From a bacterium (GTDB lineage: Bacteria; Myxococcota_A; Bradymonadia; UBA7976; UBA1532): a DNA stretch of 64,000 nt. The notes under the pieces are model-generated. The model worked only from the letters and a program-made list of their open reading frames with translations. It did no database searches and was not told where the DNA came from. Shown in pieces: positions 16,732 to 24,292 of the stretch. Within the stretch, counting starts at the first letter, position 1. The number at the start of each line of letters is the position of its first letter. The stretch covers positions 62,001 to 126,000 of the forward strand of contig JAUHYW010000015.1 in the NCBI GenBank assembly GCA_030426085.1. Direction: 5' to 3'. The translations under genes and the position numbers were made by a program.

Positions 16732-19224
16732 ATGGCCGACGACCCGCTCATGGCGTTCGCCCGCCGCCACCGGCTGACCCCGGCCGCGCTGCGCGACCTG
16801 CAGACGCTGACCGGCCTGAGCCTGGGCGCCGACTCCTCGACCGCCGACGGCGGTGACCTCGACGACGGGTTGTTCGAAGGCCGACCGCCCGCGCCGCCCC
16901 CGCGCACCGACCTGCCGCCGCTCGACTTCGGGACCGACCGCTACGCCGTGCTGGGCACCCTCGGCGCCGGGGGCCAGGGCGCGGTCTACCGGGTGTTCGA
17001 CCACAAGATGCAGCGGCCGCTGGCGATGAAGGTCCTGCGCCCGCTGGCCTCGGTCGACGCCCGGGCCCGCTTCCGCACCGAGACCGCGCTGACCGTGGGC
17101 CTCGAGCACCCGGGCATCGTCCCGATCTACGACCGGGGGGTCACCGCCGACGGGCGGCCGTGGTACACGATGCAGATCCTCGACGGGGCGCACTTCGGGC
17201 GGGTGATCCGCGACGCCCGGCTGCCGCTGCGCCGGCGGGTCGACATCTTCGTGCGGGCCTGCGAGGCGGTGGCCTACGCCCACGAGCAGGGGGTCATCCA
17301 CCGGGATCTCAAGCCGCAGAACGTCATGATCGGGGCCTTCGGCGAGGTGCGGGTGCTCGACTGGGGGCTGGCCCGGCGGCTGCGCGACCGGCCGGAGCGC
17401 GTCGGGGGCCCGACCCAGCCCGACACCGACCCGCTGCTGACCCGGGCCGGCGCGGTCATGGGCACCCCCCGCTACATGGCCCCCGAGCAGATCGACGGCG
17501 ACCTGGACGCGCTGTGCCCGGCGACCGACGTCTACGCGCTGGGGCTGATGCTGACCGAGCTGATCACCGGCGCCTCGCCGGGCGGCAGCACGCTGTACGA
17601 GATCGGCGCCCTGCGGGCCGACGACCTGCGCCCGCCGACCGCGGGGCCGGCGCCGCTGCGCAGCCTGTGCGCCGAGGCCACCCGCCACGACCCGGCCGCC
17701 CGCCCGGCCGACGCCGGGGCGCTGGCCGAGGCGGTGCGCACCTGGCTCGAAGGCGCCCGCAGCCGGGCTCAGGCCGCGGCGCTGGTGGCCGAGGCCCGGG
17801 CCATCGAGCCGACCATCGCCGCGCTGCGGGCCGAGGCCGACGGGCTCGACGCCCGGGCCGCCGGGATCCTCGACCCGCTGCCGCCCCATGCCCCGATCGA
17901 AGACAAGCGCCCCGGCTGGCAGGTGGCCGACGCCGCCGTCGCCCGCCGCCGCGAGGCCCGGCTGGCCGAGGTGAAGCTGCGCCAGACGCTGCAATCGGCC
18001 CTGCGGCTCGACCCCGACTCGGCGGCGGCGAAGCTGGCGCTCACCGAGCACTACCGGGCCCGGCTGCTCGAGGCCGAGGCGGCCCACGACGCCGACGGGG
18101 CGGCCGAGTTCGAGGCGCTGCTGCTCGGGCACGACGCCGAGGCCAACATCGAGTGGCTGCGGGGGGACGGCAAGCTGACCCTCGTCACCGACCCCCCCGG
18201 AGCGGCGGTCGAGCTGCTGCGCTACGAGGCGCGCGACCGGCGGCTGGTCGAGGTGCCGCTGCGCACGATCGAGGCGACCCCGATCGTGGAGATGCCGCTG
18301 GCGATGGGCAGCTACCTGCTGCGCATCACCCACCCCGGGCGGGCGCCGGTGCACTACCCGGTGAGCATCGAGCGGCATGCCATCTGGGATGGGATCCCGC
18401 CGGGCGAGGAGATGCCCCATGCCATCCCGCTGCCGACGCTGGATGCCATCGCCGAGGGCGAGTGCTACGTGCCGGCCGGGTGGTGCACCCTGGGGGGCGA
18501 TCCGGACGCCATGGACGGGCTGCCCCGGCAGCGGCTGTGGGTCGATGGCTTCGTGATCGCCCGCGACCCGGTGACCCACGGGCAGTACATCGAGTGGCTC
18601 GACGGGCTCGTCGCCGCCGGGCGCGAGGCCGAAGCCCTCCAGCACGTGCCGGTCGAGTCATCCCAGGGGCAGCGGCGGAGCTGGGCCTACGCCCGGGATC
18701 CCGACGGCCGGTTCCGGCTCACCGGCGCCTTCGGCGGCCGACCGGAGCCCGACTGGCCGGTCGTGGGCGTCTCGTGGGCGTCGGCGATGGCGTTCGGCGG
18801 GTCGCGGCGCACACTGCCCGCGTCCTGGCAGTGGGAGAAGGCCGCCCGGGGGGTCGACGCCCGGGCCTTCCCCTGGGGCGCGACGTTCGCGGTGAACTGG
18901 GCCCGGGTCCTGAGCCACGCGCCCGGGCCGCCGTCGATGGCGGCGGTGCACGCCCACCCCGCGGATCGCAGCCCCTACGGTGTGCGGGGCATGGGCGGCA
19001 ACGTGCGCGACTTCTGTCGGGACGTCTACCGCCGGCGCGGTCCGCCGGTCGTCGAGGGTCGGCCCCGGCTCGGCGCGGTGCCCGATGTCGGGGACTTCCT
19101 GGTCGTCAAGGGGGGCAGCTACGTCAGCAAGCTCAACGCCTGCCGGGCCGCCTCCCGGTTCGGCATGCCGCTCGGCGAGCATCAGGCGACCGTGGGCTTC
19201 CGCCTCTGCCGGCCGCTGCGATGA
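16732..19224 (+). CDS. Ser/Thr protein kinase fused to FGE/SUMF1-like domain
   Basis: An 830-residue two-part protein. Residues about 70-345 are a Hanks kinase: glycine loop LGAGGQGAV, MKVL lysine, HRDLKPQN with Asp192, DWG at 210-212, and GTPRYMAPEQ. A helical/TPR-like middle (350-480) and a PEGA-like beta segment (about 485-555, LVTDPPGAAVELL) follow. Residues about 579-830 are a formylglycine-generating-enzyme (SUMF1) fold: YVPAGWCTLGG at the start, GVSWASAMAF, LPASWQWEKAARG, PYGVRGMGGNVRDFC, VVKGGSY and VGFRLC at the end. I cannot show that the copper-binding Cys pair of true FGE is present, so this may be a binding domain, as in many bacterial kinase-FGE fusions. No membrane helix is clear. 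Confidence 0.88.
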   Translation: MADDPLMAFARRHRLTPAALRDLQTLTGLSLGADSSTADGGDLDDGLFEGRPPAPPPRTDLPPLDFGTDRYAVLGTLGAGGQGAVYRVFDHKMQRPLAMKVLRPLASVDARARFRTETALTVGLEHPGIVPIYDRGVTADGRPWYTMQILDGAHFGRVIRDARLPLRRRVDIFVRACEAVAYAHEQGVIHRDLKPQNVMIGAFGEVRVLDWGLARRLRDRPERVGGPTQPDTDPLLTRAGAVMGTPRYMAPEQIDGDLDALCPATDVYALGLMLTELITGASPGGSTLYEIGALRADDLRPPTAGPAPLRSLCAEATRHDPAARPADAGALAEAVRTWLEGARSRAQAAALVAEARAIEPTIAALRAEADGLDARAAGILDPLPPHAPIEDKRPGWQVADAAVARRREARLAEVKLRQTLQSALRLDPDSAAAKLALTEHYRARLLEAEAAHDADGAAEFEALLLGHDAEANIEWLRGDGKLTLVTDPPGAAVELLRYEARDRRLVEVPLRTIEATPIVEMPLAMGSYLLRITHPGRAPVHYPVSIERHAIWDGIPPGEEMPHAIPLPTLDAIAEGECYVPAGWCTLGGDPDAMDGLPRQRLWVDGFVIARDPVTHGQYIEWLDGLVAAGREAEALQHVPVESSQGQRRSWAYARDPDGRFRLTGAFGGRPEPDWPVVGVSWASAMAFGGSRRTLPASWQWEKAARGVDARAFPWGATFAVNWARVLSHAPGPPSMAAVHAHPADRSPYGVRGMGGNVRDFCRDVYRRRGPPVVEGRPRLGAVPDVGDFLVVKGGSYVSKLNACRAASRFGMPLGEHQATVGFRLCRPLR

Positions 19225-19236
19225 GCCCGCGGCGCA

Positions 19237-20628
19237 TCAAGCCTTGGGGTCGGTCGCCATCGAGTAATAGGTCCGGGTGTAGTCGCTCGTCTGCCGGATG
19301 AAGTACGCCGGGGTGGTGGCGCTGTCGAGCAGGGACGACTTGCCGTTGTTCAGCACGCCATACGCGGTCACCTGATCGGTCGACGCGAAGATATACCCCG
19401 TCGGCGCCCCGCCGCTCGACGTGGCCACTCCGAACGCGTCCTTCATGTTCTGGGACCCGCGGGTCGGGGTCAGCCCGTTCTCCTGGTAGATCAGGGGGCT
19501 CGAAGGCACCGAGATCTGATCGGTCGGGGTGAGCGATGGGGTGCCGGTCTCGAACGACGTGGTGGGCCACGCGCCGTTCGTCCACGCCCAGTACTGCCGG
19601 TTGCTGGTCCAGCCGTGCGACTTGGAGCCCACGTCCCCGGTCACGTACACCGTGCCCAGCGTCGCGCCGCTGCTCGTCTTCAACGTCGCGTTGAGGACCT
19701 CCCCCTCGCCGACCCCGGGCCAGATCTCCTGCCCCGGCAGCCTCTGCGGCGGCCGCGGCCCTCCCACGTCGCCGAGGGCCGAGAACACCCGCTGCTCGCC
19801 GGCCTCGTGACTGCCGAGGAAGCGCGGCCTCTGCTCCACGAGCATGCCCTTCAGGATGTCGGGCGACAGCCGGGCCAGCGCGTTGAACGTCAGCCCCGAG
19901 GTCGTGCCTTCGACCCCGTCGACCAGCCCGTAGCGGTGGATCAGGTTGCTGGCGGCCCACGAGAACGCGCCCCGCACGCCCCCGATGACCGGCACCTCGT
20001 AGCTGACGTGCCCCACCTCGCTCGAGCTCATCACCAGGTCGCCGAAGACGTCGTGGGTCGCCCCCTCGCCGGGCACGACCTTGGTGGTGGCGCCCTGCCA
20101 CGGCAGCGCCCGGCTGCGGGCGGTGCCCACCGCGTCGGTGAAGCCGGTGTCGTTGTGGCAGGTGTCGATGAACGCCGTGATACGCGCCCTCGAACGCGCG
20201 CTCAGGATCGCCGCGACCTCGGTGACCGGCAGCGCGTTGCTCAGCACCCCGCCCCGCGCCTCGATGTCCGACGGGCACAGGATCTGTCCGGCGTCGGTCC
20301 GGGTGCCGTGGCCGGACCACGTCAGCACCGCCTTGGCCGCCTGGTTCTCGTCGAGCTGCTTCACCAGCCAGCCCAGCGCCGCGCACAGCTCGGCCTTGCT
20401 CGTGCCCGAGAACTGCACGTCCCGGGTGTGCGCCGGCGGCACGTAGAACGGCATCCGGGGGCTGACGCAGATCATGATCTGGCTCGGCGGGACACCCAGG
20501 TCGCGCATCATGTGCAGCCAGGCGGCCACGTCGTGGGGCGGGCCCTTCAGATCGGCTCGGCCGCTGGGGTCGAAGGCGGCGTAGTCGCCCACCCCGACCA
20601 GCAGGGCGTATGCGTTGTCGTTGCTCAT
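19237..20628 (-). CDS. Caspase-family (C14) peptidase with unknown C-terminal domain
   Basis: A 463-residue protein. Residues 1-170 carry the caspase/metacaspase p20 signature: an opening strand YALLVGVGDY, catalytic His107 in LTWSGHGT and catalytic Cys157 in AFIDTCHNDTG. Residues about 175-240 could be the p10-like part (VMSSSEVGHVSYEV, RGAFSWAA). The last 200 residues are Ser/Thr/Gly/Asn-rich, beta-like and unfamiliar. No signal peptide is visible. A GAGGA ribosome-binding site precedes the ATG at 20628. It is convergent with the kinase-FGE gene, 12 bases apart. Codon use is slightly less GC-biased than neighbours, especially in the C-terminal part. Activity depends on unknown partners. Confidence 0.82.
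   Translation of the reverse strand: MSNDNAYALLVGVGDYAAFDPSGRADLKGPPHDVAAWLHMMRDLGVPPSQIMICVSPRMPFYVPPAHTRDVQFSGTSKAELCAALGWLVKQLDENQAAKAVLTWSGHGTRTDAGQILCPSDIEARGGVLSNALPVTEVAAILSARSRARITAFIDTCHNDTGFTDAVGTARSRALPWQGATTKVVPGEGATHDVFGDLVMSSSEVGHVSYEVPVIGGVRGAFSWAASNLIHRYGLVDGVEGTTSGLTFNALARLSPDILKGMLVEQRPRFLGSHEAGEQRVFSALGDVGGPRPPQRLPGQEIWPGVGEGEVLNATLKTSSGATLGTVYVTGDVGSKSHGWTSNRQYWAWTNGAWPTTSFETGTPSLTPTDQISVPSSPLIYQENGLTPTRGSQNMKDAFGVATSSGGAPTGYIFASTDQVTAYGVLNNGKSSLLDSATTPAYFIRQTSDYTRTYYSMATDPKA

Positions 20629-20722: not shown

Positions 20723-24292
<3,570 letters not shown>

Follow-up and report, generated by a model that had tools for sequence, protein, structure and literature searches.

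A kinase-FGE gene and its caspase neighbour in Myxococcota: a candidate signalling module linked by an orphan beta domain

The kinase-FGE and caspase-CTD genes

The DNA analysed here, called the window below, is a stretch of 64,000 nucleotides (G000:C44:62001-126000) from a genome of 10.1 Mb in 178 contigs. Two of its genes lie tail-to-tail with a stop-to-stop gap of 12 bases: a kinase-FGE gene (16732..19224, + strand) encoding 830 aa and a caspase-CTD gene (19237..20628, - strand) encoding 463 aa. The flanking genes were of the ordinary, housekeeping type and included a histidine kinase, a sigma-54 response regulator, methyltransferases, TatD, an OmpA/MopE-type protein and a metallophosphatase (PF00149, 15765-16655), which occupies position -1 of the kinase-FGE gene and was not shared with other modules. 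With such neighbours the defence-island setting raised in the first-pass annotation was rejected for the window. The OmpA protein (20723-24292, 1189 aa) carries MopE-type metal-binding and TSP3 repeats, and it partly resembles the outer membrane exchange protein TraB at a score far below the TraB cut-off.

The kinase was initially described as carrying a SUMF1-like C-terminal domain, and the Pfam searches agreed. A Hanks-type protein kinase domain (aa 71-284, 16942..17583, + strand; Pkinase, E 3.9e-34) retained the AMK lysine and the aspartates of the HRD (at 190) and DWG (at 210) motifs. It was followed by a long linker rich in Arg (aa ~340-570) and then by the FGE/SUMF1-like domain (aa 578-826, 18463..19209, + strand), whose assignment to this C-type lectin fold follows from the match to FGE-sulfatase (E 2e-26). 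No hydrophobic segment of the transmembrane type was found when the protein was scanned, and it was classed as cytosolic. Many PADLOC kinase models, of PD-T4-6 and other defence systems, also matched the protein, in the kinase region only. While the FGE-like fold is thus present, the catalytic cysteine pair of FGE is absent from the window domain. At the positions which we take, from the known FGE motif, to be catalytic, the first Cys is a Ser in the window and was replaced in all 34 of 34 kinase-FGE paralogues; the second position was variable. Because the cysteine pair has been lost, the domain is best read as a non-enzymatic binding domain of the C-type-lectin fold.

Diversification of the FGE domain by a diversity-generating retroelement (DGR) was considered and rejected, as no template was matched. 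The genome gave five reverse transcriptase matches, none on the window contig, and a search of these loci for a template repeat of the window kinase-FGE end found none, the matches listed being of at most 14 nt. Elsewhere in the genome, at L051 (G000:C70), two FGE-like gene ends (134-292 and 2399-2557) lie on either side of a short reverse transcriptase gene and have a 159-nt stretch in common with 91% identity; at 10 of the 15 differing positions one or the other copy has an A. This locus is possibly a DGR, judging from these repeats.

The second gene had been credited with a caspase fold and an intact catalytic dyad, which was borne out. Its Peptidase_C14 (caspase/metacaspase) domain spans aa 7-228 (19945..20610, - strand; Pfam E 6.8e-13), and His107 (codon 20310-20308, - strand) and Cys157 (codon 20160-20158, - strand) were invariant in six relatives. 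The top PDB fold matches of the predicted structure, a model that is weak overall (pLDDT 52), were metacaspases, headed by metacaspase 2 of T. brucei (4afp, E 1.4e-5). Asp155 lies two residues N-terminal of Cys157. Metacaspases of this DxC type favour basic cleavage sites; since the motif precedes the active Cys here too, the window caspase is, by analogy, probably Arg/Lys-specific, with a basic P1 preference. The PADLOC match of the protein was weak (E 6e-9), and the NCBIfam model of EACC1-type caspases scored 17 bits, the cut-off being 140. About 11 caspases are encoded in the genome, and only the two with a CTD adjoin kinase-FGE genes. In a caspase-only search of other genomes all close relatives of the window caspase lay beside a kinase-FGE gene. 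As sole query of the genome contigs the window protein had no match, and an alignment used as query recovered four named loci. The named relatives were metagenome-assembled genomes (Myxococcota bacterium KLAP118 and bacterium 2_bin.46).

The CTD and its pairing with kinase-FGE genes

It might be thought that the tight spacing of the two genes in itself argues for a functional link. However, short convergent gaps are common in this genome, so that 12 bp is uninformative on its own: at the same loci 134 of 366 control genes (37%) had a convergent 3' neighbour, with a median convergent gap of 18 bp. Spacing was accordingly rejected as evidence. Among kinase-FGE genes the proportion with a convergent 3' neighbour was higher, 35 of 55, a moderate excess over the controls. 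The feature that does rise above chance is the recurrence of these two protein families side by side.

The element responsible for this pairing is the C-terminal end of the caspase protein. The last ~165 residues had no match in Pfam, and gene maps showed that several kinase-FGE paralogues have a small convergent neighbour which matches only the C-terminal part of the caspase. We call this region (aa 299-463, 19240..19734, - strand) the CTD; it was always found beside kinase-FGE. An AlphaFold model of one CTD (L088) had a pLDDT of 78 and eleven strands. A structure search with this model, a step suggested when the locus was first annotated, found no match in the PDB (best E 0.33) or in a viral library (best E 0.02), a negative result limited by the shallow, six-sequence alignment on which the model was built. 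The CTD is a previously undescribed orphan all-beta domain.

Whole-genome profile searches of Myxococcota identified 13 clear CTDs, in three families, and all 13 were encoded directly 3' (+1) of a kinase-FGE gene. Ten came from 57 genomes of the class, every one at +1 and convergent to kinase-FGE, with none elsewhere; because these ten also served as profile seeds, the information in this search lies in the absence of further CTDs at other places. The remaining three were search finds rather than seeds. In 379 genomes of the phylum the profile found two new members in another family (G179 and G255), both convergent to kinase-FGE, and a search of the class of G255 added G303, from yet another family, whose CTD gene is co-directional with kinase-FGE, with an overlap of 4 nt at the kinase stop. 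The first-pass annotation had regarded the link as weaker for being convergent. Twelve of the 13 pairs are convergent; the co-directional, overlapping pair of G303 answers this objection.

Two further matches were borderline. L066 (E 2e-4) is convergent to kinase-FGE. L071 (3-2131, G008:C136) is divergent from it and cut by the contig end; here a caspase gene is followed by an apparent frameshift, weak similarity to DUF4384 and a partial CTD. Profile comparison gave no support for including L033, L046, L045, L061 or the family of exported proteins described below. Weak matches in G060, G190 and G239 (E 0.004-0.009) were attributed to chance; gene calling gave no kinase-FGE gene alongside those of G060 and G190, and the G239 stretch had no called genes.

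The pairing is specific to one position. When positions -4 to +4 of 34 kinase-FGE loci were compared, the CTD family stood at +1 in 10 loci and the exported family at +1 in five, while FHA and sigma-54 activator proteins, which single linkage joined in one group, stood at -1 in 11. At other positions genes were shared only in groups of two to four, mostly from orthologous or closely related loci. The kinase-FGE/CTD pair was kept across three families while flanking genes varied, and the distribution of the module was patchy, with several divergent copies per genome. The sequence divergence of the CTD also followed that of one part of its partner: in a mirror-tree test of only 13 pairs, which are related to one another, the correlation of CTD distances with FGE distances was r 0.63 (Mantel p 2e-4) and kept a partial r of 0.46 once the kinase domain was controlled for, whereas that with kinase-domain distances was r 0.49 and fell to a partial r of 0.05 once FGE was controlled for. 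This closer agreement with FGE than with the kinase suggests a contact between FGE and CTD.

A caspase domain was present on seven of the 13 clear CTD proteins (those of the window, G001:C77, G001:C98, G000:C45, G006:C24, G006:C79 and G255). The CTD gene of G179 is cut by a contig end and starts with residues resembling a caspase tail, so it is probably an eighth. The other five CTDs stand alone. On the kinase tree the caspase-CTD group requires at least two changes. At L028 (5008-12480, G001:C77) tandem kinase-FGE/CTD modules were found, one with and one without a caspase. Because five CTDs stand alone and, in the window's genome, only CTD-bearing caspases adjoin kinase-FGE genes, it is the CTD, not the caspase, that forms the conserved link to kinase-FGE, and the caspase is a swappable output. 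The first annotation would have had its module of kinase and caspase refuted by the lack of a conserved neighbourhood in relatives; this check was run and did not refute it. The idea holds for the pairing; it does not hold for the caspase as the conserved partner, since the orphan domain takes that place with or without a protease.

Neighbouring genes and a possible mechanism

An FHA-domain gene was found at -1 in about half of the CTD modules, and many kinase-FGE genes, those of six CTD loci among them, had an FHA or sigma-54 activator gene at -1 or -2. Pfam confirmed the FHA domain at L030, L034, L035, L040, L044, L045 and L054 and the sigma-54 activators at L036 and L037. FHA and/or sigma-54 activators were also noted at L030 (11464-13931), L031, L034, L035, L040, L045, L106 (1963-2883) and L107 (10244-11161). 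In the G179 and G255 modules the FHA-domain gene is divergently upstream of kinase-FGE. Some FHA proteins beside kinase-FGE possibly have a winged-helix C-terminus. FHA domains bind phosphothreonine, and an FHA protein at -1 thus fits active phosphorylation in the family; from their predicted domains, the neighbours at -1/-2 are likely to be a phospho-reading transcription arm. No FHA or sigma-54 gene was seen beside the window module or its closest relative, and several sister caspase modules also had no FHA. Just past the FHA gene of the G255 module lies a gene for 806 aa (L107 11185-13605) which is caspase-like by BLAST (E 4e-5) and had no Pfam match.

A second family at +1 consists of small exported proteins with a signal peptide, after which most have an AQ-GG-E motif, and has no protease. 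Its six members, from the two genomes of the window's genus, were all beside kinase-FGE genes (L036 8844-9443, L037 5540-6088, L039 9002-9547, L053 5587-6162, L055 5212-5775 and L084 4021-4545).

The explanation towards which we lean, by a modest margin over doubt, is that kinase-FGE and caspase-CTD form one dedicated signalling module in which FGE docks on the CTD and phosphorylation controls the protease. The C-terminal FGE-like domain of the cytosolic Hanks-type kinase would serve as a binding domain for the CTD of the protein encoded by the neighbouring gene; as the CTD has no known fold match, this docking is a guess from co-evolution. A cue would trigger the kinase, which would phosphorylate or release caspase-CTD and so switch proteolysis on or off. 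Sister modules with a caspase-free CTD have this kinase-CTD core as well, and the FHA protein at -1, found in about half of the modules, could read the phosphorylation. The usual convergent layout means that kinase and partner proteins need not be produced together. We infer the docking, the direction of control and the trigger, and likewise the substrate, the outcome and whatever part the module may play in cell death or defence.

A different division of labour would have the CTD serve the kinase primarily as a subunit that senses or binds a ligand, with transcription as the main output through the FHA proteins and sigma-54 activators; the caspase, in modules that have one, would trim pathway components and not kill the cell. 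The five CTD genes without caspase, the FHA and sigma-54 neighbours, and the filling of the same slot by a protease-free exported family beside other kinase-FGE paralogues all agree with this. We nevertheless consider it rather unlikely, because the window module and its closest relative adjoin no such FHA or sigma-54 gene and because caspases were attached repeatedly with their catalytic residues kept. Control might also run in reverse, a caspase triggered through its CTD cleaving kinase-FGE, for instance in the long linker, and thereby releasing or destroying kinase activity. The Arg-rich linker would suit the basic sites favoured by a DxC-type caspase; the retention of the kinase in CTD-only modules, where there is no protease, makes this improbable.

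A further alternative is an abortive-infection or conflict system, with FGE as the sensor of an invader and the caspase as the killer of the host cell. FGE/C-type-lectin domains are presumed sensors and caspases presumed effectors in published systems (PMC7159879, PMC8195603, PMC10907252); the patchy distribution and the divergent copies within genomes would fit such a role. Against it stand the ordinary window flanks, the generic nature of the PADLOC kinase models and the weakness of the caspase match, and neither a partner of the STAND, MoxR-vWA or EACC1 kind nor a DGR template was found, so that we judge it unlikely. Finally, the pair could be a hitch-hiking relic, kinase and partner genes having been duplicated together without interaction of their products. 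Short-gap convergent neighbours are common in the genome, as stated above, and several modules are orthologous or tandem copies; yet the pair persists across three families despite changing flanks, one orientation change (G303) has not broken the link, and it is specifically the FGE domain whose divergence the CTD mirrors. A relic is therefore very improbable.

Relation to known systems

No description of a kinase-FGE/CTD-caspase pair was found in the open-access literature searched, and parts of its design recur elsewhere. In cyanobacterial DGR variable proteins kinase and caspase are alternative fusions on a lectin domain diversified by the retroelement (PMC7517822). As in the Kinase-CLec proteins of that work, a Ser/Thr kinase domain is N-terminal to a domain of C-type-lectin fold, and orthocaspases belong to the same protein family; unlike in Kinase-CLec and orthocaspase-CLec, two separate genes are linked here via the CTD, and no template repeat was found. 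The EACC1-caspase systems resemble the module in having two genes, a constant component and a variable component fused to a caspase (Kaur et al. 2020, PMC7159879), but there the constant component, EACC1, is a single-TM protein encoded 5' of the caspase, whereas kinase-FGE is cytosolic and usually convergent. STAND NTPase-FGS systems likewise have an FGE/FGS lectin-fold domain as presumed sensor, and their effector may be a caspase or a kinase (Kaur et al. 2021, PMC8195603); in contrast, the present module has no NTPase and no effector-associated domain, and its kinase bears the FGE. Metacaspase-FGE fusions combine the same two domain families in one polypeptide (Asplund-Samuelsson et al. 2012, PMC3501461), while in the present pair the FGE domain belongs to the kinase, and the beta domain borne by the caspase is unrelated to it.

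Taken together, we consider it an evenly balanced proposition that Myxococcota have here a signalling system not described before, whose lectin-fold kinase would recognise a beta domain to which a caspase can be attached, giving kinase-gated, exchangeable outputs. To our knowledge, bacterial caspases are widespread and few have a known upstream switch. The gene pair provides a testable route by which protein phosphorylation may control a bacterial caspase. An orphan domain without known structure now has a name, and its pairing with kinase-FGE offers a candidate function for one branch among the kinase-FGE families, which are large in myxobacteria.
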